From contig JALONH010000001.1 of the NCBI GenBank assembly GCA_025455005.1, positions 124,001-188,000 on the forward strand: a stretch of DNA of 64,000 nt, given 5' to 3'. Source of the DNA: Cytophagaceae bacterium (GTDB taxonomy: Bacteria > Bacteroidota > Bacteroidia > Cytophagales > Cytophagaceae). Every line of letters begins with the position of its first letter. Positions within the stretch are counted from its first letter, which is position 1. Positions 1 through 12,586 of this stretch are shown here, one piece after another. Below the pieces are notes generated by a model, which did not search any database, was not told the DNA's origin, and saw nothing but the letters and a program-made list of their open reading frames with translations. A program made the translations under genes and the position numbers.

Positions 1-3000
1 GTTGAAATTAATTATAGAACTGAGGCGCTCAGATATATAAAAGGATTGGTAGATACCATGCGAAACGTGACTACCAATAATCCACAAAAATGGAATTCAG
101 GTGATATTGGAATGGATGGATATGTAAAGGGTGGAGATACATGGAATGAATTAACGGATTGGGCAAATGTTGGTTATTTAGGGTTACTTCCTGAGTATTT
201 TGGCCCTAGACAACAATACGTAGATTATAATGCGCCTGCCTATTTTAAAATTTTTGGTGATTTTATTCAATCTCAAGAACCTACTAATACCTGGTGTATC
301 AATCAATTTAGAAGAGCGGAAGCTTCTTGTGATTGGGTATCTAAACAAATGGATAATCAAAATCTTTCGGGATTTGCAGGATGGATTAATATGTCGACAG
401 GTTTACCCGTATTTAGTAGCTTCACGGATGGCGAAGATTTTAGAACACCATGGCGAACAACACTAAATCATATGTGGAATGGACCTTCAGAAGTAACTTG
501 GAATCCTATTCTTCATCAATTTTCTAATACTTCAAATACATTTCAATTAGATTTTTCTCATCAAGTGATGTCTTTCTTTAAAGATCCTCAATCTTTTGGA
601 AATACTCCTTACACATTACCAACCTTAAATCTACCCATTTGTGGTCCCTCTACTGTTACCGCTTACCATTCTCCTACAGGTGGAGGACAAACCAAAACAA
701 CAACTACTGGAAGTGTTACCACATCCTCTAGTTATTTCCGTTTAAATTGGCCATATGGTTCATTTTCTCCTGCTGCTGTTAATGTACAAGATTTTGATAT
801 TATGACCAAAATGTACAGGAAATGTGAAATCACTTGGGATGGTCAAGATATAGGACAACAATACTTAAATTCAAGACCTATCTATTTTCATGAATGGTTT
901 CGATTATTGGGAATGTTAGTCTTAACAGGTAATTATCATGATCCCCAGCAAATGATTCCTACAGCAAATATGAAAATTTATAAAGAAGTAAATAAGACAT
1001 TTGCTTATGTAGGGGATACACTTCAATATACTATAACCTATCGCAACTACGGTAAACCAACGGCTACTGGGGTAGTAGTTACAGATGTATTACCTGCAGG
1101 ATTGCAATATATATCCTATACTTCTACAAAGCCCGGGGTAACATTTTCTTCTTCTGGTTCTACTCTTACGTGGTCCATAGGTTCTGTTGTAGGAACGAAT
1201 AATAACCTGCCGGCTAACTTATCTCTTACTATGGATACCTTACGTGTAAAGGTTCGTGTTTTAGCAGCCGCATCCGGAACCCGTGTTTGTAATCGAGCGG
1301 TCATTACGTGTACCAATGGTTCAGGATGGACAAGTAATGAATTCCCAAACCGAGTAACAGAGGTGATGCAACGCAATTGCGTAGACATATTGGGTGAAAG
1401 CCCATTAAAGATCACTAAAACGGCGTCTAAAGCGGCTGTTCAAGTAGGAGATTCTATTGCTTACACTATAGTAGTAAAAAATCAATCAGTTGCATTTTTA
1501 AATGGAGGAAGACCTGGGGTGATTTTATCTGTAGGGCACCAAGGATTAACCTCTACCAGTGAGTTAAAATTGAATTTTAGATTTTGGCATGGTGCGGATG
1601 AAGCATATATCAATACGAAAAACTATCGTATGTCATATTTCCTTCGTGAAGCGGGACCTCCCAATTGGTTAGTTGATATGAATACCTCTGAGGGTTTTGG
1701 AACCGTTCCACCAACAATCAATACTCAAGCGTTGGTGCCGGGCACAGGATATAATCATCGTTTCTTTCTAACCTTTCCGGACCAATTAGCCACTGTAACA
1801 CAACACTTAGCTGAGTATAATACGAATGACGATAAGATTCACAGAGGAGCAACACGTCCTCAGCGTATGGAAGTAAGGGTGTATACTAATCCTACCGGTG
1901 TATTTAATTTCACTGATGATTGGAGCGCAGACCCAACGTTACAAGTCGCCTCCGGAGACTTGTATTTTCCTGTTGCAAACGACTGGACGGATCCGAATAA
2001 TCTCAACCAACCCGTTACTAAAATCCATCCGGAAGCTTGTAATAACGTAGCACGAACCACGGATAAATTCCTAGTAGAAGAGTGGGATGGATATACTTGG
2101 AGAAGAATTTATGGAAATTCTCCTGCATCCGGAAGAGAGTTATTAAACATACAAGTACGCGATACACTACCGAATACCGTTACCTTTGGTGGGTTTTTCC
2201 CGGGCTACCCTACGGGCACCATCACCGGTGGTAACATACTACAATGGCCTACCGTGCCTCTTTTATTAACTAATGATTCCATCGTATATCGTTTTTGGGT
2301 GCGCGTGAAAGACGCTACTTTTTTCAATTGCCCGTCCGGACCTACACCGGATAGAGTCATTAACCATGCCCATGGGCGAGCCAATGGAGAACCGTGGAGA
2401 CGGGCCACAGCCACTACTATGGTTAGTTGTGATCCCGTATCGGATCCTAATGCTGCAGTCGTGAAAACCAGTGATAAATCTATTTATCAAGTTAACGATA
2501 ATATTGTATACACCATTACGTATGAAAATAAAAGGGGTGGTATTGTAAATGGACCCGGTCTCATCGCGGATTGGACGGCATTAAATGCCAATGGTAAATT
2601 AGGAGTTACCGCAACGACCATCGATTTAAATACTTCTTGGCAAAATAGGCTAATGACCTATCGTTACTCCCATGGCACTAATGGTGTAGTAAGAGGAAGA
2701 ATGAGTACACCCCAATATGCAGACTATAGTATCTTATTACGTCAATCCGGAAATGATGCAGTAGAAGTTATTTTAAGAAAAGAAAATGCAGGTGTATTAA
2801 TTACTGTCAACAATTTAAATATTTCTGCTAACTCTAGTACCCAAATTGGGACAAGTCAATTAATAAACTATTCTAATCTACCGGGTGATTATGATTTTGA
2901 AATTAGGTTAGTAGGTAATTCCATTGGTATTTCTATTGTTAATCCGGGAGCCCCAATGCCCGGTGTAAGCCACCATATTGTAGTTGGAGTTCCTGTAAGA

Positions 3001-3891
3001 TCAGGTTTTGTTGGAGTTGGCTCTGATATTGGCAATGTTGCTTCCATCTCGAATTGGTTTACCAATATGGATTCACAATTCAACGTTCAAATGACGGATC
3101 CTATTCCTACCAACTTAAGTTTTGTCTCAGCTGCTACTGCCTCCTATAATGCTGCTAATTATACCGGTAGTAATGTAGCCGGTGTGGTGACATGGCAAAC
3201 CATCCCGGGCCCTGTGGCACTGGGCGACCGCATCACATTTACTTGGACCGGCAGAGTGAACACTTGTCCTACTGTTAACATTGTAAACACAGCCATCGCA
3301 AAAGTATTCGGCATCACACCGGATCAAACAGGTGTGCATGTAGCCACTTGCAACAATGGTCTACCACTTGACTGGTTGCAGTTTACAGCGTATGCACAAG
3401 GTGGGACGCATCGACTTTCATGGGTCACGGCAAACGAAACAGCGGTACAACAATTTGTCGTACAACAGTCAACTGATGGGATTCACTTTACAGACCATTC
3501 AGTTCTTCCGGCACGCAATATGGCCTATAACTCGTATACTCGTTCGATCGTGCCTACCACATCCGGAACCTACTATTATCGGATTCGTCAAGTAGATCAA
3601 ACCGGAGCCGTCAGCTATAGCAGTATACGACCGGTAACCGCATCCAACGATTTTGCTTTGCTTGTTCAACCCGTTCCGTTTGATCATCAAACCACTGTGA
3701 CCATTCAGTCTCCTGCACAAGAAAATTATACGCTTCGTGTTTGGGATGTAGGAGGTAAAGAAGTACAATCCGCACAAACGTTCGAAGGTTCTCAAATCCT
3801 TACGCTGGGAGCGTCTTGGAGCAGCGGCACCTATGTCATTGAAATCACTACCCAAAATCAAGTGATCCATCAAAAAATTATTAAGTATTAA
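1..3891 (+). CDS. Secreted GH8-type protein with DUF11 repeats and T9SS sorting tail (5' end outside window)
   Basis: The frame is open from base 1, so the start and the catalytic half lie upstream; about 1,296 residues are visible. The first 100 or so residues match the C-terminal part of the GH8 module of the next gene (MDGYVKGGDTWNE against FDGYMKRANTVRD; RRAEASCDW against KRAEASSDW). Three DUF11-like beta-sandwich repeats follow, beginning near nt 970 (KIYKEVNKTFAYVGDTLQYT), 1400 and 2450. The last 75 residues are a type A T9SS sorting domain (from nt 3660, VQPVPFDHQTTVTIQ, ending VIHQKIIKY). Family knowledge: GH8 enzymes cleave beta-1,4 glucans, chitosan or xylan; which substrate applies here cannot be read. 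The protein should be exported, cross the outer membrane by T9SS and be anchored or released. Its stop overlaps the ATG at 3891. It is a tandem paralogue of 3900-8626, sharing a nearly identical stretch (VEEWDGYTWRR) at about 2070 and 6765. Confidence 0.8.
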   Translation, partial: VEINYRTEALRYIKGLVDTMRNVTTNNPQKWNSGDIGMDGYVKGGDTWNELTDWANVGYLGLLPEYFGPRQQYVDYNAPAYFKIFGDFIQSQEPTNTWCINQFRRAEASCDWVSKQMDNQNLSGFAGWINMSTGLPVFSSFTDGEDFRTPWRTTLNHMWNGPSEVTWNPILHQFSNTSNTFQLDFSHQVMSFFKDPQSFGNTPYTLPTLNLPICGPSTVTAYHSPTGGGQTKTTTTGSVTTSSSYFRLNWPYGSFSPAAVNVQDFDIMTKMYRKCEITWDGQDIGQQYLNSRPIYFHEWFRLLGMLVLTGNYHDPQQMIPTANMKIYKEVNKTFAYVGDTLQYTITYRNYGKPTATGVVVTDVLPAGLQYISYTSTKPGVTFSSSGSTLTWSIGSVVGTNNNLPANLSLTMDTLRVKVRVLAAASGTRVCNRAVITCTNGSGWTSNEFPNRVTEVMQRNCVDILGESPLKITKTASKAAVQVGDSIAYTIVVKNQSVAFLNGGRPGVILSVGHQGLTSTSELKLNFRFWHGADEAYINTKNYRMSYFLREAGPPNWLVDMNTSEGFGTVPPTINTQALVPGTGYNHRFFLTFPDQLATVTQHLAEYNTNDDKIHRGATRPQRMEVRVYTNPTGVFNFTDDWSADPTLQVASGDLYFPVANDWTDPNNLNQPVTKIHPEACNNVARTTDKFLVEEWDGYTWRRIYGNSPASGRELLNIQVRDTLPNTVTFGGFFPGYPTGTITGGNILQWPTVPLLLTNDSIVYRFWVRVKDATFFNCPSGPTPDRVINHAHGRANGEPWRRATATTMVSCDPVSDPNAAVVKTSDKSIYQVNDNIVYTITYENKRGGIVNGPGLIADWTALNANGKLGVTATTIDLNTSWQNRLMTYRYSHGTNGVVRGRMSTPQYADYSILLRQSGNDAVEVILRKENAGVLITVNNLNISANSSTQIGTSQLINYSNLPGDYDFEIRLVGNSIGISIVNPGAPMPGVSHHIVVGVPVRSGFVGVGSDIGNVASISNWFTNMDSQFNVQMTDPIPTNLSFVSAATASYNAANYTGSNVAGVVTWQTIPGPVALGDRITFTWTGRVNTCPTVNIVNTAIAKVFGITPDQTGVHVATCNNGLPLDWLQFTAYAQGGTHRLSWVTANETAVQQFVVQQSTDGIHFTDHSVLPARNMAYNSYTRSIVPTTSGTYYYRIRQVDQTGAVSYSSIRPVTASNDFALLVQPVPFDHQTTVTIQSPAQENYTLRVWDVGGKEVQSAQTFEGSQILTLGASWSSGTYVIEITTQNQVIHQKIIKY

Positions 3892-3899
3892 TGCATTGT

Positions 3900-4970
3900 A
3901 TGAAAATTCGTTTAACACTGGTTTGCATTCTCTCTGTACTTACAATGGTTTTCTCTACCCTTGTAGCACAAACATGGCCTGCAGATACGATTCAAATTAA
4001 TATCAATAGTGGTAATCCCAAATATCCTTTCCCTCAATTTTTAGAATATAAAGAAGGTAAAACATTAGCTACACACAATCCGATAGGAGTACCACATGCT
4101 GAAATGGAGAAATCAATTAGAGAGGCTTATCGGATTATGATGAACAGTACCATTTACACAGGTCAGTCTATAGGAACCGGTGCTAATCAAGTGAGATATA
4201 TGGCATATAACCCACCTTCTGCACCAGATCCGGGACCGGAACCATTATGTTCAGAAGGAGATGGATATGCATTAATAGCTGCGGCATACTTGGGAGATAA
4301 AAAAACCTTTGATGGTCTTTGGTGTCGTTTACATGATAATCGTTTAAATATAGTAACAAGATATATTGATTGCCAAGTAACACGCCCTAATTATCGTTAT
4401 GGACCTTATATAGCTGGGTGGCAACAATCAGCAACTGCAGCAAATACTAATACTGGAGATGATGTTAATGGTGCTCCGGATGGTGATTTTGATATTGCCT
4501 TAGGTTTATTGATTGCATATTATCAGTGGGGTGAATTCATGGGTACTAATGACAATTGTGGTAATCCTATTTCCTATAAAAAAGAGGCAATTAATTTTAT
4601 CAAAGCATTAGCCGATACGGTCTTTTTTGATGCCAATACAGGTATGAATGTCCCAAATTGGAATCCTAGATTAGATCCTTCCGGTGCTAATGGGTATTAT
4701 TCAGGTCATATTGGTTTTGATGGGTACATGAAACGTGCGAATACTGTACGAGATGTGACGAATTGGGTTTATACAGTCCCTGGATATACATTTGGAGGCA
4801 AAACTATGTATGGAAGAAGTATGGGAGCTTCAGATGATCCTCATACAGACTATATGGCTCCCGCGTACTTTAGGGCTTTTGCTACATTTTTGGAGGGTCA
4901 GCAGGTTGGGACAGAGTATGCTTTTGTTATCAATTCAAGAGAGCAGAAGCTTCGAGTGATTGGATTATGA
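3900..4970 (+). CDS. 5' part of frameshifted GH8-type secreted protein (catalytic domain)
   Basis: I prefer the start at 3900, because it begins a signal peptide (MKIRLTLVCILSVLTMVFS, cleaved near LVAQ); an in-frame ATG at 3891 overlaps the previous stop. Residues 118-137 carry the GH8 signature SEGDGYALIAAAYLGDKKTF with the presumed acid Glu119. Residues 194-196 (DGD in DGDFDIALGLL) match the second conserved GH8 acidic site, and YYQWG follows. The frame stops at 4970 inside the module. Homology to the first gene resumes at once in another frame (FKRAEASSDWIMKQLNDQG, from about 4938). The break lies at 4930-4945, where the paralogue has two copies of CAAT and this gene has one. With four bases restored, 3900-8626 would encode about 1,576 residues. 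Either this is a pseudogene or the base call is wrong. Confidence 0.75.
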   Translation: MKIRLTLVCILSVLTMVFSTLVAQTWPADTIQININSGNPKYPFPQFLEYKEGKTLATHNPIGVPHAEMEKSIREAYRIMMNSTIYTGQSIGTGANQVRYMAYNPPSAPDPGPEPLCSEGDGYALIAAAYLGDKKTFDGLWCRLHDNRLNIVTRYIDCQVTRPNYRYGPYIAGWQQSATAANTNTGDDVNGAPDGDFDIALGLLIAYYQWGEFMGTNDNCGNPISYKKEAINFIKALADTVFFDANTGMNVPNWNPRLDPSGANGYYSGHIGFDGYMKRANTVRDVTNWVYTVPGYTFGGKTMYGRSMGASDDPHTDYMAPAYFRAFATFLEGQQVGTEYAFVINSREQKLRVIGL

Positions 4971-7900
4971 AACAATTGAATGATCAGGGTAAATTGCCTT
5001 ATGCAGGTCGTCATAGTATCAGTGGTACAGCCGTATCCTTTTTTCAATATAAACCAGGTGAAGATTTTCGTAATCCATGGAGAACTTTAGCGAATTACAT
5101 GTGGTACGGTCCGGGACAGTATACCTGGAATCCTACAACATACACTTACACGATAGCACCACAAAATTATGAATTATTGAATGCTCAAATATTAACACCA
5201 TTTTTACGTAATCCGGAGAATTATACTTTGTTAGGTTGTGAAAAAATTGGAAAGGATCCGATTCAAGAAACGACATACAAAGGTACTTATCTTATTCGTA
5301 AAGTCCATAATATGGATGGTACGCCTTTTAATTCACCTGAAGAGGAGAGGGGTGTGAATAATGCCAGAGGAGCTTCTATGTGTGCTCCTGTCCTAACAGG
5401 TGAAACCGATTTACTTGCTAAATTATATCGTGATGTTGAGCTGCATTGGGATAATAGGGGGGTGCCCAAAGTGCCTACACTTACAGATGCGCAAAGAAAC
5501 ATAAACGGTACGGAATCTTATATGCACGGTTTTTTCCGTCTATTGGGGATGCTAATCGCAACAGGTAATTGGCATTCACCCATTTTTTATGCATCTCCGG
5601 TACAAGCAAATATGAAAGTATATAAAGCAGTAAGTAAAACTTATGCTTTTACTGATGATACAATAAAATACACGATAAGTTATAGAAATTACGCTTCCGT
5701 AAATGCTACAGGTGTTCGCATACAAGACGTCTTACCTCCGGAATTAGAATTTGTATCGGCTTCTAATGGAGGAACCTATACAGGAGGTATCGTTACTTGG
5801 AACTTAGGTACTGTATCGGGATTTAACTCTGCTACCGGCATTATTCCAACTCAAGGTAAAGTGACGATGATTTGTAGAGTCAAATCAAATGTACCTACAG
5901 GAGCTAGAGTTTGTAATACGGCTACTATTAGTTGTACTAATGGAACAGGGTGGACAAGTAATGAATATCCCAATAATGTTACCCCTGTTATGGAGCGAAA
6001 TTGTGTTGATATTGTAGGTCGCGCTTTTGAAATAACAAAAGAAGTGGATAAACCAATAGTGAATCCCAATGATATTGTGGAATTTAAAATAACATTTAAA
6101 AACTCTACTGATGCAGGTTGGTTAAATGGGGGAAGGCCTGGTGTGAACGTGACTCATGCATATGGTTATGCGGGGGTGAATTCATTCATGATGTTTTATC
6201 GAATTTTTCATGGAGCAGATGAACCCTATATAGATTATGGCAATTATAGGATATCGTATTATTTAAATAACCCTTCTGTGAATGGTTTCTACCCGGCTTA
6301 CGCAAATGGTTGGGTATTTAAGGTGAATTTTATGGAAGGAGGAGATCCTACGAAAGTAAAATTCGATTTTCAAAAAGTTCCATATGGTTCAGAAACAATT
6401 TCAGGTATCAATAGAAAATGGGATCAAAGATTAATATGTAAATTTCCTAACTCTTTAGGAGCTTTATCTCAACATCTATATCAAAAATGGTCGGAATATC
6501 CGGATATTCACAAAGGAGCCTACGATCCTTTTAGAACACAATTACAATTAGAATTACCAACCTCCTCTCCTATTGATCCTGTCATCAACGATAGTTGGTC
6601 GTACGATGGTATTTCTTCTTTTTTATCCGGCTATAATGATAAATCACCATATTATCCCATTACACCGGATTGGACGGATGTCATTACATATCCTGCCGGA
6701 AAATTAGTAGATAGAGTACATCCGGATGTTTGTGAAACAAGACCTAATTATAGCCGAGTTTTAGTAGAGGAGTGGGATGGATATACTTGGAGAAGAGTGT
6801 TAGGAAGAGGGCCATTACCCGGAAGAGAGCAATATAATGTAGTAGTTGTAGATACTGTGCCGGCTAATTTAGAGTTTGTTAAGTTTACCGATAATGAAGC
6901 TTTAGGAATTATTGCTACATATGATGCTACAAAAAAGATAATCAAATGGCAAATACCTACTTTTTTGGTTGGCTCCATAGGTGATTTAAGATATGAAGCT
7001 AAAGCATTAGGAACATGCCCAATGACAGATAAAGATGTACGTAACTGGGCTTGGATTTTTTCAAGTACAGAATCACCACTAGGTGATTACGCCGATGTCA
7101 AAATCACTTGTAATGTTGTACCACCTCCTTCATCTAAAACAAGCATTTATAAATCATCTGATAAAAATTCGTATGTAGTAGGGGAAGAAATCACCTATAC
7201 TCTAGCATATAAACAAACACAAGGTACTCAAGCCGTAGGTAACGTATCTAGTGGTACTAATTGGACTACGGTGTCAGGTACTTCTACCTTTAATGCTACT
7301 AATTTAGGGTTATCGAGTAATGCATTTATATATCAACAATATTCTCATGGAACGGATGGAGAATTTGATATATACGTCAATAATACCAATTCAAATGACA
7401 TCTTTTCAGTAGTGCTAAGGTATGAATCAGGCACACCTAATACGGCATCGTTTGATGGAGTTGGAATTCAAATTCATCCCGGACCTTGGGGTAAAAATTC
7501 AGGAGCATTAATTGCTGTGGTGGATGGAAATACTGTAATTTCTAGTACACCCGGGTTTGTTACTTATGCAGATCCAACAGCTGACACGCTAAAAATTCAT
7601 ATATCTTTGAAAGGATCAGAAATGAAGGTATGGTTAAATAAAAATTACCTTACAGATGCTCCTATTCTTACAACTACAGGACTACGAATTCAACCGGGTT
7701 ACATAGGCATGGTCAACGGTTTGATTACGGCTAATGCATTCCCTTCTTACGCTGGGGGAGTTGGGACAAGTAATTCCATAACCTATTGGAAGTCTAATTT
7801 TGATTCAGCATTTGATATTAAGTTAAGTGATTTAATTCCTTCAGGCACATCCTTTATACCATCATCAATAGTTGTAAATTATAATCAATTAGGAAAGTTT

Positions 7901-8626
7901 ACTTCATTACCTAATTTTAACACAAACTCAGTTTTATGGAATCTTTTTGCAAATCCTAAAATGCCTATCCTATATGGGGATTCGGTTAAATATCAGTTTA
8001 AAGTAAAGGTGGAGGAATGTTTTTCAGGATATATAACAAATATCTTATATGCGAATCTGTATAGTAATCCTGCTAACAAAACAATAAATGCTACAAATCA
8101 AGTAACATGTTCTACAACGTTGCCTGTTTCGTTATTAAGTTATTCGGGTAAAGCAAGTAATACGGGAAATCTACTGAATTGGGTATCACTAAGTGAAAAA
8201 GATACATATGGTTATTATATAGAAAAATCTTCGAATGGTATACAGTTTGTTACCATAGAATTTGTTTTAGCAAATAATACGCATGCTATGAATGAATATA
8301 CATATATAGATCAAAATACCGGAAATGCATTCTATCGATTAAGAATACAAGATATTAATGGAAGCAGTGAAAATAGTAACACTATTTTCCTATCTCAAAA
8401 CAGTTTGGTTTCTATTTTCCCTTTACCATCTAATAATACCTTCACCGTAAAAGTTCAGTCACCGGAGGTATTCCATTATCAAATCTATTCCTCATCGGGC
8501 CAACTGGTAGAAAAAGGCACGGCTAACCAATCCGTAACAGTAGGGAATGAATATGCTCAGGGAGTCTATACCATCCAAGTCATTACCGGTGATGAGGTAG
8601 TTGTACGGAAGTTGGTGAAAGAGTAA
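4967..8626 (+). CDS. 3' part of frameshifted GH8-type secreted protein (DUF11 repeats, T9SS tail)
   Basis: This frame continues the protein begun at 3900; its apparent ATG at 4967 is an internal Met. The homologous frame extends upstream to about 4938. It holds the end of the GH8 module (EDFRNPWRTLANYMWYGPGQYTW). DUF11-like repeats begin near 5610 (MKVYKAVSKTYAFTDDTIKY), 6030 and 7140; the DUF11 cores and VLVEEWDGYTWRR match the first gene. A type A T9SS sorting domain ends the protein (from about 8410, SIFPLPSNNTFTVKVQ, ending VVVRKLVKE). As a separate reading frame it has no signal peptide, so without the 5' part it would not be exported. A hairpin terminator follows at 8642. The body is well preserved, which argues for a very recent mutation or a sequencing error rather than an old pseudogene. 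Confidence 0.75.
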   Translation: MKQLNDQGKLPYAGRHSISGTAVSFFQYKPGEDFRNPWRTLANYMWYGPGQYTWNPTTYTYTIAPQNYELLNAQILTPFLRNPENYTLLGCEKIGKDPIQETTYKGTYLIRKVHNMDGTPFNSPEEERGVNNARGASMCAPVLTGETDLLAKLYRDVELHWDNRGVPKVPTLTDAQRNINGTESYMHGFFRLLGMLIATGNWHSPIFYASPVQANMKVYKAVSKTYAFTDDTIKYTISYRNYASVNATGVRIQDVLPPELEFVSASNGGTYTGGIVTWNLGTVSGFNSATGIIPTQGKVTMICRVKSNVPTGARVCNTATISCTNGTGWTSNEYPNNVTPVMERNCVDIVGRAFEITKEVDKPIVNPNDIVEFKITFKNSTDAGWLNGGRPGVNVTHAYGYAGVNSFMMFYRIFHGADEPYIDYGNYRISYYLNNPSVNGFYPAYANGWVFKVNFMEGGDPTKVKFDFQKVPYGSETISGINRKWDQRLICKFPNSLGALSQHLYQKWSEYPDIHKGAYDPFRTQLQLELPTSSPIDPVINDSWSYDGISSFLSGYNDKSPYYPITPDWTDVITYPAGKLVDRVHPDVCETRPNYSRVLVEEWDGYTWRRVLGRGPLPGREQYNVVVVDTVPANLEFVKFTDNEALGIIATYDATKKIIKWQIPTFLVGSIGDLRYEAKALGTCPMTDKDVRNWAWIFSSTESPLGDYADVKITCNVVPPPSSKTSIYKSSDKNSYVVGEEITYTLAYKQTQGTQAVGNVSSGTNWTTVSGTSTFNATNLGLSSNAFIYQQYSHGTDGEFDIYVNNTNSNDIFSVVLRYESGTPNTASFDGVGIQIHPGPWGKNSGALIAVVDGNTVISSTPGFVTYADPTADTLKIHISLKGSEMKVWLNKNYLTDAPILTTTGLRIQPGYIGMVNGLITANAFPSYAGGVGTSNSITYWKSNFDSAFDIKLSDLIPSGTSFIPSSIVVNYNQLGKFTSLPNFNTNSVLWNLFANPKMPILYGDSVKYQFKVKVEECFSGYITNILYANLYSNPANKTINATNQVTCSTTLPVSLLSYSGKASNTGNLLNWVSLSEKDTYGYYIEKSSNGIQFVTIEFVLANNTHAMNEYTYIDQNTGNAFYRLRIQDINGSSENSNTIFLSQNSLVSIFPLPSNNTFTVKVQSPEVFHYQIYSSSGQLVEKGTANQSVTVGNEYAQGVYTIQVITGDEVVVRKLVKE

Positions 8627-8641
8627 AGATCCTATTACATT

Positions 8642-8680
8642 AAAAAAGGGTGTGGTCATGAAATAACTACGCCCTTTTTT
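8642..8680 (+). terminator. Rho-independent terminator after the GH8 gene
   Basis: An A-run and GGGTGTGG pair with CTACGCCC followed by TTTTTT (wobble pairs allowed). The hairpin begins 16 bases after the stop codon at 8626. Confidence 0.7.
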
Positions 8681-8820
8681 AATGCTTTTATAAAGCTTGT
8701 AATATATTTTAAATCATAAGGTTATGTTCTGAGGCTGTTTAAAATAATCTTAACTAAATGATTTAGGATGATAAATAGGGCACCTTTACTTCAACTTAGT
8801 TCTAATCCCCTTTCTTTATG

Positions 8821-8862
8821 TTTTTGTTAGTAACAAAAGAAATTATTTGTTACTAACAAAAA
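8821..8862. promoter_or_regulatory. Perfect 17-base inverted repeat, likely operator of the ATPase gene
   Basis: The left arm TTTTTGTTAGTAACAAA (8821-8837) and right arm TTTGTTACTAACAAAAA (8846-8862) are exact reverse complements separated by 8 bases. The right arm supplies the -33 TTTG of the promoter described next. A protein bound here would therefore compete with or recruit RNA polymerase. No regulator gene is adjacent, so autoregulation is only a guess. Confidence 0.6.
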
Positions 8863-8875
8863 ATTTGTATTTTTG
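8846..8875 (+). promoter_or_regulatory. Bacteroidota-type promoter (-33 TTTG, -7 TATTTTTG)
   Basis: TTTG at 8846-8849 and TATTTTTG at 8868-8875 (consensus TAnnTTTG) are separated by 18 bases, close to the spacing known for Bacteroidota sigma-ABfr promoters. Transcription would start near 8882. That excludes the upstream TTG at 8847 and supports the ATG at 8907. Confidence 0.65.
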
Positions 8876-8906
8876 GATTAAGTTATTCGTAATCAAAGTT
8901 CTGTAT

Positions 8907-10118
8907 ATGATATTAGAATCGATTCTTTTAGACGTGATAGAAAATCAAACTACTATCATTAAACAAAAAAAGGCCGGAATAAAAAGAGGCCAACTAAAAG
9001 ATACTCGAGTTATTCATAATTTTGCTATTGTCATATGTGGGGTCCGAAGATGCGGAAAAAGTACATGGATGTATCAATTATTACAACAGGATGCAGCCAA
9101 CTTTTTATTTTTAAATTTTGAAGATCCAAGATTGGTTGGGTTTGATTTACAAGATTCACAACGCTTGCTTCGTATTATACAATCGAAAGAAGTAAAAACG
9201 TTGTATTTCGACGAAATACAAGATTTCACCGAGTGGGAAATATTTGTTAGACAATTATTAGATTTAGAGTATCAAGTGGTGATTACCGGTTCTAATGCTT
9301 CCTTACTTAGTACAGAATTAGGAAGTAAGCTTACCGGTAGGCATTTATCTTATGAGTTATTTCCGTTTGATTATTCTGAATTTTTGTTGTTGACCGGTAA
9401 GGATCATAATCAAGAGTCTATTGATTTTTACATTAAAAATGGAGGCTTTCCTGAATTTTTAAAAACAAATAACTCCATGATTTTAAATCAACTTCTGGAT
9501 GACATTATTTACCGTGATATAGCTGTACGATATGGTGTAAGAGATGTATTGTCTTTACGTAAATTGGCTGTTTATCTATTATCCAACATAGGGAAATCTT
9601 TTTCAGCAAATAAGTTAAAAGAACTTTTTGGAATCAAAGCTACGAGTACTATTTTAGAATACTTATCGCACTTAGAAAATACTTATATCGTTCAATATCT
9701 ACCTAAGTTTGATTATTCGCTCCAAGTACAAATACGAAATCCTAAAAAAGTATATGCAATAGATTTGGGTTTATTTTCCTACAATTCTGTTGTATTTACA
9801 GAGGAACATGGACGTAGATTAGAAAATCTAGTTTACTTACATTATCGAAAAAAGTTTAAGGAATTATATTATTACCAATCTAAAAAAGAATGTGACTTTG
9901 TTGTTTTCGATAATGGAAAAGTGAAAGAAGTAATTCAAGTTTGTTATCAATTGGATGATATAAATTTGAAGAGAGAAACAGAAGGATTGATAGAGGCTAT
10001 GGACTTTTTTAAGCTGTCAACCGGTAAAATCATTACCTACAACCAAACAGATAGGTATGTGATTTCAGGTAAAGAAATTGAAATTATGACCATACAAGAA
10101 CTGTTGCTACAAAATTAG
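8907..10118 (+). CDS. AAA_14/DUF4143-family ATPase
   Basis: A 403-residue protein. Residues 45-53 are the Walker A loop (GVRRCGKST) and about 99-105 the Walker B strand (LYFDEIQ). A sensor-like TGSNASLLS follows. The C-terminal half is the DUF4143 region (NKLKELFGIKATSTILEYLSHLEN, then KECDFVVFDNGKVKEVIQV, a nuclease-fold-like module). Family knowledge: these archaeal-type ATPases are common, patchily distributed single genes of unknown role, often in variable regions. I chose the ATG at 8907 because the promoter and palindrome occupy 8821-8875. The gene stands alone between T9SS cargo genes. Immediately after its stop lies a remnant of another cargo gene, which suggests it replaced that gene by transfer or recombination. 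Confidence 0.85.
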   Translation: MILESILLDVIENQTTIIKQKKAGIKRGQLKDTRVIHNFAIVICGVRRCGKSTWMYQLLQQDAANFLFLNFEDPRLVGFDLQDSQRLLRIIQSKEVKTLYFDEIQDFTEWEIFVRQLLDLEYQVVITGSNASLLSTELGSKLTGRHLSYELFPFDYSEFLLLTGKDHNQESIDFYIKNGGFPEFLKTNNSMILNQLLDDIIYRDIAVRYGVRDVLSLRKLAVYLLSNIGKSFSANKLKELFGIKATSTILEYLSHLENTYIVQYLPKFDYSLQVQIRNPKKVYAIDLGLFSYNSVVFTEEHGRRLENLVYLHYRKKFKELYYYQSKKECDFVVFDNGKVKEVIQVCYQLDDINLKRETEGLIEAMDFFKLSTGKIITYNQTDRYVISGKEIEIMTIQELLLQN

Positions 10119-10123
10119 ATTGA

Positions 10124-10182
10124 ATACCATCCAAATGATTACCGGTGATGAAGTAGTGGTAAGAAAGTTGGTGAAAGAGTAG
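10124..10182 (+). pseudogene. Orphan T9SS tail of a lost GH8-type paralogue
   Basis: These bases encode TIQMITGDEVVVRKLVKE and a stop, against TIQVITGDEVVVRKLVKE at the end of the gene ending at 8626. About 53 of 59 bases agree. Most of the differences are synonymous (GAG/GAA, GTT/GTG, CGG/AGA), which points to a once-functional diverged paralogue rather than a fresh duplication. It has no start or body of its own and begins six bases after the ATPase stop. Confidence 0.75.
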
Positions 10183-10200: not shown

Positions 10201-10235
10201 AAAAAGGGGTTTTGATTCTTCAAAGCCCCTTTTTT
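10201..10235 (+). terminator. Rho-independent terminator inherited from the lost paralogue
   Basis: AAAAAGGGGTTTTG pairs with CAAAGCCCCTTTTTT around a short loop. It stands about 20 bases after the orphan T9SS tail, as the terminator at 8642 does after its gene. It would also end ATPase transcription. Confidence 0.75.
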
Positions 10236-10285: not shown

Positions 10286-12586
10286 ATGCAACTTTTAGTT
10301 AGGTGGGTATCAATTACAATTTTCTTTTGTAACACATTAAGTACTTTTTCTCAATCAATAACAACGGTTGCGGGTGATGGGAGTTACGGCTCAATTGATG
10401 GTCCCGTGTTATCTGCATCTTTTAAATCCCCTAGAGGAATGACAAAGGATGCATTAGGTAATCTTTATGTGGTAGACATGGATGCCCATGTAATTAGAAA
10501 AATAACTTCTGATGGTATTGTTAGTACATTTGCAGGGACGGGTGTAGCAGGTGATGCAGTGGGAGCACCTAATGTAGCGCAGTTTAGATATCCATTTGAT
10601 ATAGTAATTGACAATCAAGGTTTTTTTTATGTTACAGACGAAAGTAATAATAAAATAAAAAAAATATCACCAACTGGATTCGTTTCAGATTTCATAGGTA
10701 ATGGGACTTCAGGTGATATAAATGGTAATGGAATGAATGCCCGTTTAAACAGACCAAGTTCTATCTGTATTGATGCAAACAATAATTTAGTGTTTACAGA
10801 TACATATAATCATAAAATTAAAAAAGCTACACTTAACGGTGATGTAATAACTATAGCAGGTAATGGTGTTTATGGTACATTAGATGGTCTTTCATTGAAT
10901 GCCACTTTTCAATATCCGCAAGGAATTGCTATGGATGATGCTGGTAATTTTTATGTTGGATCGGGCTCTTATACAATAAAAAAAATTGGGACTAATGGTA
11001 TTACTTCTACTTTTGCTGGAAATTATGTTCAGGGTGATGAGGATGGTCAAGGAACTATCGCTCGTTTTAATTCAATTTCTCAAATTAAATTAGGGCCAAA
11101 TAATTCTTTATTTGTTACAGAATATTCAATTAGTAAAATTAAACAAGTTGATCAATTAGGGAATGTAACAACTATTATTTCTTCTTCTGGATATGGAAGT
11201 GAAGATGGTTCTTTCACTTCTTCCAGATTTGCTTTTCCGTCTGGAATATATTTTGACGGATATAGATCATTATTTTTTACTGAAGTAGATTTTAGAAAAA
11301 TAAGAAAAGCATATTTCCCAATTTCATTACCTTGCCAACTTACCGTTACCAATACTAATGACTCCGGAGTGGGAAGTTTGAGAGATTGTATCGAGTGCGC
11401 CAATGTGAAACCAGGGAAGGATACGATAATATTTTTAATTAACGATGTATTAACAAATGTTGGTTTACCTGAAATTACAGAAGCATTAGAAATTAGAGGT
11501 AATGTAGATAGTGATGGGTGGCCGATAACAAAAGTTCGTCTCTCTGGAATAAATGGGTGGTTTGGTATTGATGAAGGTTCAACTGATGCGTTTATTATCA
11601 ATAGTGATTCTGTAATTATCGTCAATTTAAGTATAGATAGCTTTTACAGGCCAATTTGGATAAAGAAAAATAGAACTGCTATAGAAATAAAAAATAACAT
11701 ATTCTCCAATTTTAATCAAATAAGGACAGATACTATCGGTTCGTTATTATTCGAGAACAATAATATCAATGTTCAGAAGAATGGCGATTTGATAGCAGGT
11801 TATATTGGACATAATATTTTTTTCGATGGGAGTAAATTGATAATAAGAAATAATCAATTCGGAAATATTGGATATATACTTCTTGGCAATAATGTAATTT
11901 TTTTAAATAATCTACTCGGGATTTCCAAGCAGAACAAAAAATTATCCGACTATAGTTTTAGAATAATCGGGGATAATAATATAGTAAAAGGTAATTATTT
12001 TGGAAATTCTCGATATGGGATAGAGTTATACTTAACATATCCTAAAAATAATATTATTGATTCAAATACCATTGGAAAAGATAGAGTTGGGAATATTCAT
12101 CCTGTAGAATACGGTATGTTTATATATGGTGGGCAAAAAAATGTTATTTCAAATAATGTTATTTCAAATTTTACTGAAAGAGCCTTTGAACGAATATGCG
12201 ACACTTTACCTACAACAAACTTTAAGACTATTTTTATTAAAAATATAATTGTTAATAATATTGATTCATTGAAATTTTACTTGAATGACTTAGGATGTAA
12301 TTTTTATATTTATAAGCCAAAAATATTAAATTTTACTTCAATTGACACACAAATTACAATTCATGGGAAATCTAAAGCTAATGATACTGTAGAGGTATTT
12401 TATGTTAAGAGTGCCTTCATCGAAAGCATTGATGAGTACATAGGAACAACTTATTCTGATCAATATGGAATTGGTCATTTACATTTACAAAGAAACCTCA
12501 ATATAGTTTTGTTCGGTCTACTTTTACTAAATATGGATTTACTTCTGGTTTTTCAGATGCTTTCCCTATTGATGAGTCTGTTATGA
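10286..12586 (+). CDS. 5' part of frameshifted T9SS cargo: NHL propeller and first beta-helix
   Basis: A signal peptide (MQLLVRWVSITIFFCNTLSTFSQ) is followed by about six NHL-type propeller blades (residues 25-350, for example FKSPRGMTKDALGNLYVVDM and LNRPSSICIDANNNLVFTDT). A right-handed beta-helix domain begins at the motif VTNTNDSGVGSLRDCIECAN (about residue 352). The last 30 residues (from NLNIVLFGLLLL) are out of frame. The correct continuation is read in another frame from about 12490 (KPQYSFVRSTFTKYGFTSGF). One base is therefore missing in the A-rich run near 12488-12497. Family knowledge: such proteins are surface or secreted adhesins or carbohydrate-binding proteins. The whole gene would be 10286-15289, about 1,667 residues. 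Confidence 0.75.
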   Translation: MQLLVRWVSITIFFCNTLSTFSQSITTVAGDGSYGSIDGPVLSASFKSPRGMTKDALGNLYVVDMDAHVIRKITSDGIVSTFAGTGVAGDAVGAPNVAQFRYPFDIVIDNQGFFYVTDESNNKIKKISPTGFVSDFIGNGTSGDINGNGMNARLNRPSSICIDANNNLVFTDTYNHKIKKATLNGDVITIAGNGVYGTLDGLSLNATFQYPQGIAMDDAGNFYVGSGSYTIKKIGTNGITSTFAGNYVQGDEDGQGTIARFNSISQIKLGPNNSLFVTEYSISKIKQVDQLGNVTTIISSSGYGSEDGSFTSSRFAFPSGIYFDGYRSLFFTEVDFRKIRKAYFPISLPCQLTVTNTNDSGVGSLRDCIECANVKPGKDTIIFLINDVLTNVGLPEITEALEIRGNVDSDGWPITKVRLSGINGWFGIDEGSTDAFIINSDSVIIVNLSIDSFYRPIWIKKNRTAIEIKNNIFSNFNQIRTDTIGSLLFENNNINVQKNGDLIAGYIGHNIFFDGSKLIIRNNQFGNIGYILLGNNVIFLNNLLGISKQNKKLSDYSFRIIGDNNIVKGNYFGNSRYGIELYLTYPKNNIIDSNTIGKDRVGNIHPVEYGMFIYGGQKNVISNNVISNFTERAFERICDTLPTTNFKTIFIKNIIVNNIDSLKFYLNDLGCNFYIYKPKILNFTSIDTQITIHGKSKANDTVEVFYVKSAFIESIDEYIGTTYSDQYGIGHLHLQRNLNIVLFGLLLLNMDLLLVFQMLSLLMSLL

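Follow-up and report, generated by a model that had tools for sequence, protein, structure and literature searches.

Insertion of a small unit together with a long duplication of its target is known for restriction-modification genes (Nobusato et al. 2000, as cited in PMC3874152, PMC3031569, and PMC4978471), and PMC2654758 cites that work solely for restriction-modification systems. In the laboratory study of PMC3240628, 56 of 60 Lac- clones gave a PCR signal of a gene-end duplication, the 14 that were sequenced measured 109 to 950 bp, and the authors read these duplications as single crossovers of circular plasmids. A related linear process is given in PMC5361080 as the explanation of displaced genes in Vibrio. 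According to an account of archaeal immunity (PMC12988326), members of the PDC-S01 family join an ATPase to a PD-(D/E)XK member; the same account ranks PDC-S01 as the fourth commonest defense in prokaryotes and states that most PDCs await validation.

We analyzed a stretch of 64,000 nucleotides (called the window below, always at its full length) in which a PDC-S01-type ATPase gene is bracketed by two copies of the end of its upstream neighbor. The second tail is confirmed as an observation. The features of the locus, and of two other loci considered below, are listed in Table 1.

The gene end repeated behind the ATPase gene

Upstream of the ATPase gene lie two tandem paralogs, gene 1 and gene 2. 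When compared to the intact gene of a relative, gene 2 changes frame between about positions 4901 and 4931 and is thereby divided in two; either a genuine lesion or a fault of the assembly may account for this. The last 18 codons of gene 2, which reads TIQVITGDEVVVRKLVKE at its end at 8626, encode the terminal part of a T9SS sorting domain (TIGR04183). The T9SS sorting signal is common to many unrelated secreted proteins. The label "GH8-type" given to the second tail in the first-pass annotation is not established, and it cannot be read from 18 codons.

The second tail (tail B), in frame at 10126 to 10182, reads TIQMITGDEVVVRKLVKE and is closed by a stop codon; the aligned repeat begins slightly ahead of it, at 10124. 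Its presence 3′ of the ATPase stop had been stated in the first-pass annotation and stands, while the spacing of six bases given there has to be corrected to seven. The proposal that the joint lies at the ATPase stop is supported. The ATPase gene is surrounded by a direct repeat of 58 bp with 90% identity. A DNA search of the genome that carries the window with tail B at E ≤ 0.001 returned, besides tail B itself, a sole match, to the last 18 codons of gene 2 (tail A; 90% over 58 nt, E = 7.3e-16). This value rules out chance similarity of the tails, and a recent genome-wide copying of the T9SS tail is unsupported, since no DNA match beyond tail A was found at this threshold. With the end of gene 2 as the query against the same genome and a limit relaxed to 10, all further matches had E values of 0.67 or worse. 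An Rfam RNA or a tRNA at the site was rejected.

Tails A and B share 50 of 57 bases, and the 7 differences fall in five codons. Four of the five changed codons are synonymous, with the stop codon included, and the remaining one changes V to M. Given seven random substitutions, the probability of at most one residue change is 0.00097 (0.0029 with a transition bias). Two earlier claims, that the tails differ mainly at synonymous positions and that they diverged as functional coding sequence, are borne out by these counts. A strong hairpin followed by a U-run was found 3′ of each tail (z = −8.15 for tail A and −5.81 for tail B), in line with the proposal that tail B has a terminator of its own; a strict terminator scan reported neither tail's hairpin. 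Beyond the tails, the sequences that follow them resemble each other only weakly; of 1000 shuffles, 16 scored as well.

The ATPase open reading frame has its first ATG at 8907, with an alternative TTG start possible at 8847, and its stop codon at 10116 to 10118. There is no integrase inside the unit, since the ATPase is the only open reading frame of at least 80 amino acids between the tails. The product has Pfam-type matches to AAA_14 and DUF4143 and matches the PADLOC model PDC-S01 over residues 35 to 402 of 403 (E = 1.9e-102); judged by its sequence, it is a candidate phage-defense gene. Its structure model (mean pLDDT of 89.6) comprises an AAA domain, a helical middle whose shape suggests a winged helix, and a C-terminal alpha-beta-beta-beta-alpha-beta core. 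From this core fold and from the family description in PMC12988326, we read the C-terminal domain as PD-(D/E)XK-like. In this domain, E306 and D330 are invariant among 21 sequences, and Q344 is nearly so. All 50 Foldseek matches listed for the model were P-loop ATPases.

Table 1. Coordinates of features in the window and at two further loci.
Feature	Location	Position	Strand	Remark
Gene 1, upstream paralog of gene 2 (DUF11, T9SS tail)	window	46–3891	+	open frame enters from before the window
Gene 2, N-terminal part (GH8 domain)	window	3891–4970	+	
Gene 2, C-terminal part (DUF11 repeats, T9SS sorting domain)	window	4967–8626	+	
Tail A	window	8570–8626	+	end of gene 2, 18 codons with stop
Terminator hairpin of gene 2	window	8638–8684	+	
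Palindrome	window	8821–8862	.	two 17-bp arms, 8-bp loop, just 5′ of the ATPase gene
AAA_14-DUF4143 ATPase, PADLOC PDC-S01	window	8907–10118	+	AAA domain followed by a winged-helix-like helical middle and a predicted C-terminal domain of PD-(D/E)XK-like type
Tail B	window	10126–10182	+	second tail of the type found in gene 2, 18 codons with stop
Terminator hairpin 3′ of tail B	window	10201–10234	+	
NHL-repeat protein gene	window	10286–12586	+	presumed original right neighbor
Second AAA_14-DUF4143 ATPase	L236 (same genome as the window, C2:1-8000)	2387–3574	−	
ParE/RelE-type toxin-antitoxin pair behind wzi, with displaced wzi tail	L298	695–2704		

Flank repeats around related ATPases and toxin genes

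We asked whether upstream DNA is also repeated behind relatives of the window ATPase. The discovery set consisted of 71 sources, including the window, and contained 64 ATPases, of which 59 had enough flank; other genes of 300 to 550 amino acids within the same stretches served as controls. The second set consisted of 60 regions around PF13635 matches (mainly the best-listed ones, with some skipped) from 80 genomes of the class and contained 63 ATPases, 62 of them with enough flank. The repeat criterion was fixed on the discovery set, and the second set was scored with it unchanged. Close direct repeats were detected at 9 of 59 ATPases and 4 of 171 controls in the discovery set (P = 8.5e-4) and at 11 of 62 ATPases and 1 of 103 controls in the second set (P = 1e-4). 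One of the four discovery controls adjoins the ATPase in locus L138 and shares its repeat. In the pooled and deduplicated sets, with only those repeats counted that begin no more than 100 bp from the stop, the tally was 19 of 121 ATPases and 3 of 274 controls (P = 4e-8), loci from genus g113 not being independent; the other 102 ATPases had no such repeat. The genome of the window has two PF13635 matches at E ≤ 1e-8, the window ATPase and a second one at L236, and both have a flank repeat. With both left out, the pooled count is 17 of 119 (P = 3e-7).

Host-gene ends account for 8 of the 19 ATPase repeats. The repeated sequence is the 3′ end of a gene at the window, L112, L115, L138, L207, and L236 and the 5′ end of a gene at L136 and L218. 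The other 11 repeats are intergenic (L210 is one of these), dispersed, or copies of the upstream palindrome. At L236, cas9 (a Pfam assignment) adjoins the ATPase on one side, and its last codons are repeated behind the ATPase (55 bp, 93%); on the other side lie genes that we read from their sequences as cas1 and cas2, and one small open reading frame is present besides. It is improbable that this tail stems from an additional cas9 that was lost. At L112, the ATPase lies behind wzi, and the repeat is a 371-bp wzi tail. The repeat at L115 is a T9SS tail, that at L207 is the 3′ end of an HPPD-like gene, and that at L138 comes from a gene which we take to be brnA-like. Mirrored footprints lie in front of a presumably dtd-like gene (L136) and of a gene that we assume to be pseudouridine-synthase-like (L218); the L218 repeat is 98.6% identical over 73 bp.

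On the minus strand of L138 (5299 to 8181), a single brnA-like 3′ end recurs in copies that flank the ATPase as well as a second gene. Read from part of its sequence, the second gene, which is the discovery control at this locus, is probably a DNA methyltransferase. The arrangement looks as if one target had been used by two insertions.

Flank repeats were also scored at 70 of the listed ParE-family loci from the same 80 genomes, the flanks of the toxin gene being widened to 1100 and 700 bp. Repeats were found at 18 of the 68 loci that had enough flank. A recount of the second set with flanks of this width gave repeats at 11 of its 62 ATPases and at 1 of 97 controls. Flank repeats are enriched around both the ATPase family and the ParE loci. 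Inspection of 12 of the 18 ParE repeats revealed that some, not all, are plainly gene ends.

The 3′ end of wzi was followed within one genus. Tail copies were present in 3 of the 21 loci examined (L112, L298, and L287), and their starts lie at most 13 codons apart. At L288, L296, L305, and L306, where wzi is separated from the next gene by 303 to 384 bp, no wzi tail copy was found. At L298, where a toxin-antitoxin pair lies behind wzi, the tail copy begins 36 bp 3′ of the toxin stop. The two L298 tails are of partly different affinity: 25 of the first 84 aligned bases differ (70% alike), with the nearest relatives in different species, and the last 105 aligned bases are 97% identical, the cut between the halves having been picked after the differences were seen. 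Such a recombination-like mosaic would result if a foreign allele had undergone homologous recombination with a native one. It could also represent an older duplication whose distal part was later converted. At L287 (1925 to 4822), a 2.7-kb insert with two other open reading frames lies between wzi and a diverged copy of the wzi tail.

The palindrome in front of the window ATPase also has counterparts in the family. Palindromes with a score of at least 12 in the 120 bp before the start were counted at 17 of 59 ATPases and 1 of 171 controls in the discovery set and at 25 of 63 ATPases and 4 of 115 controls in the second set (42 of 122 and 5 of 286 in both sets). The palindromes of the ATPase family are long, and their sequences vary widely between loci. 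That the palindrome is an operator for self-regulation is a guess. At L200, L209, L221, and L237, the upstream inverted repeat is copied 3′ of the ATPase stop, which would suit an element end. It is conceivable, and in our estimate decidedly unlikely, that PDC-S01 genes are self-mobile one-gene elements, in which the ATPase-nuclease would cut at or near the end of the neighboring gene and provoke recombination, much as a homing endonuclease does, and the variable promoter palindrome would act as the element end or as an operator.

Origin of the displaced tails

To describe how the tail copies diverged, differences in the eight coding cases were assigned to synonymous and nonsynonymous classes. 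Synonymous differences prevail in the window (5.5 synonymous and 1.5 nonsynonymous), at L112 (14 and 3), and at L136 (3 and 1). The patterns at L236 (1 and 7) and L138 (1 and 4) look neutral, those at L207 (4 and 6) and L115 (3 and 4) are in between, and a single change separates the copies at L218; the L236 and L207 comparisons extend one to two codons past the stop, which added nonsynonymous differences. Pooled, there are 31.5 synonymous and 27.5 nonsynonymous differences, an excess of synonymous ones with P = 1.4e-7 when compared to neutral drift and P = 0.0002 to 0.003 when compared to drift of one copy, and this pooled result leans on L112. The coding-type divergence of the window tails is observed directly; the tails therefore appear to have diverged while each belonged to a functioning gene, ahead of the event that brought them together, which fits import.

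We consider the best explanation, and probably the correct one, to be a recombination-driven insertion of a cassette behind gene 2 that stranded one of the tails. The acquired unit between the tails would be a one-gene cassette consisting of the palindromic promoter region and the PDC-S01 ATPase. The donor DNA would stem from a relative whose own gene 2 already had the cassette behind it, and this DNA would have recombined with the host at the conserved gene 2 end, either through one homologous crossover (a circular donor) or through one homologous and one illegitimate end (a linear donor). The product would be a complete gene end with one tail, the cassette, and the other tail at the ATPase stop before the old right flank. 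We infer the donor, the direction, the circular or linear state of the DNA, and the identity of tail B as the host's own copy; tail B might instead derive from a different gene with a T9SS tail. The most economical reading is that homologous recombination took place on one side, at a conserved gene end. Against it count the weak likeness of the sequences 3′ of the two tails, the 11 ATPase repeats that are not host-gene ends, the 102 ATPases that have no repeat, and the second reading of the L298 mosaic.

If an enzyme had made a long target-site duplication, the tails would have been identical at birth, and the useless copy would then have drifted. Variable repeat lengths, as reported for restriction-modification genes, the near identity of the L218 copies, and the neutral-looking differences at L236 and L138 are consistent with such an event. 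However, the differences are mostly synonymous in the window and at L112, and the L298 copies group partly with different species, so that we regard this origin as unlikely. Plain target duplication may nevertheless hold for some members of the series, since L236, L138, and L218 appear unconstrained and the pooled codon result depends strongly on L112.

In the first-pass annotation, tail B was taken for the remnant of a whole third paralog that had lost its body. More generally, a third tandem paralog or another T9SS-tailed gene would have stood between gene 2 and the NHL-repeat gene, and the ATPase would have replaced its body and left the last 18 codons. The evolution of tail B as coding sequence, the tandem of paralogs already present, and the separate terminator of each tail would all suit this history, but it requires the loss of a gene body in addition to an insertion. 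The syntenic relative G001 has the same gene 1–gene 2 tandem, and in the 6.4 kb that its contig has 3′ of gene 2, neither a third paralog nor an ATPase match was found; the genome of the window is the only one of its genus in the collection searched. Where a similarly shaped footprint lies behind another gene, as at cas9, one event suffices, whereas lost paralogs would have to be assumed separately for the cas9, wzi, HPPD-like, brnA-like, dtd-like, and pseudouridine-synthase-like genes. Because the footprint recurs, a third paralog is unnecessary, and the earlier proposal is unsupported in this respect. A lost third paralog is possible, not favored, and in our view quite unlikely.

It is very improbable that gene ends serve as a specific attachment site for an integrase acting in trans, or that the end of gene 2 was duplicated to give tail B independently of the ATPase, since, although repeats often begin 1 to 40 bp 3′ of the cargo stop and the three wzi tail copies start so close together, the unit lacks an integrase, an informal look noticed no shared sequence among the targets, and such repeats are rare in controls.

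Comparison with known systems

With recombination at conserved gene ends as the origin of tail B, which we prefer, what looked like a curious remnant becomes a scar that can be read. If the displaced gene ends beside defense-like ATPases and toxin-antitoxin pairs are footprints of recombination, genes of these kinds that arrived recently could be recognized, and the foreign tail could be used to trace their donors. If this is true, the spread of transposase-free defense genes could be tested by counting scars, and the rates observed, 19 of 121 ATPases and 18 of 68 ParE loci, with 3 of 274 and 1 of 97 for the controls, are high enough for a census. Overall, the footprints suggest a general way for small selfish genes to enter genomes. 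Among the papers listed by a literature search, with most subscription journals outside it, none reported this footprint around PDC-S01 ATPases or ParE loci. Together with its diverged tails, the footprint around these genes would be new, as a variant of the insertion known from restriction-modification genes.

The locus resembles insertion with long target duplication in its small unit and in direct target repeats of variable length, on the order of 100 bp. It differs in its cargo, which is an AAA_14-DUF4143 ATPase of the PDC-S01 type (ParE/RelE-type genes at other loci) and not a restriction-modification gene, and in its repeats, which are diverged, some of them like orthologs that evolved apart. 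With homology-facilitated illegitimate recombination and single circular crossovers, as described in PMC3240628 and PMC5361080, it shares one homologous anchor, the addition of foreign DNA, and the displacement or duplication of a part of the old gene. In contrast to those cases, the process is deduced here from natural genomes, and the anchor is the gene end of an unrelated neighbor. The ATPase belongs to PDC-S01 (PADLOC) by its model match, and its C-terminal domain, as predicted from the structure model, may correspond to the PD-(D/E)XK member described for that family. Unlike integrase-borne elements with att sites in the 3′ end of a gene, the unit contains no integrase gene.
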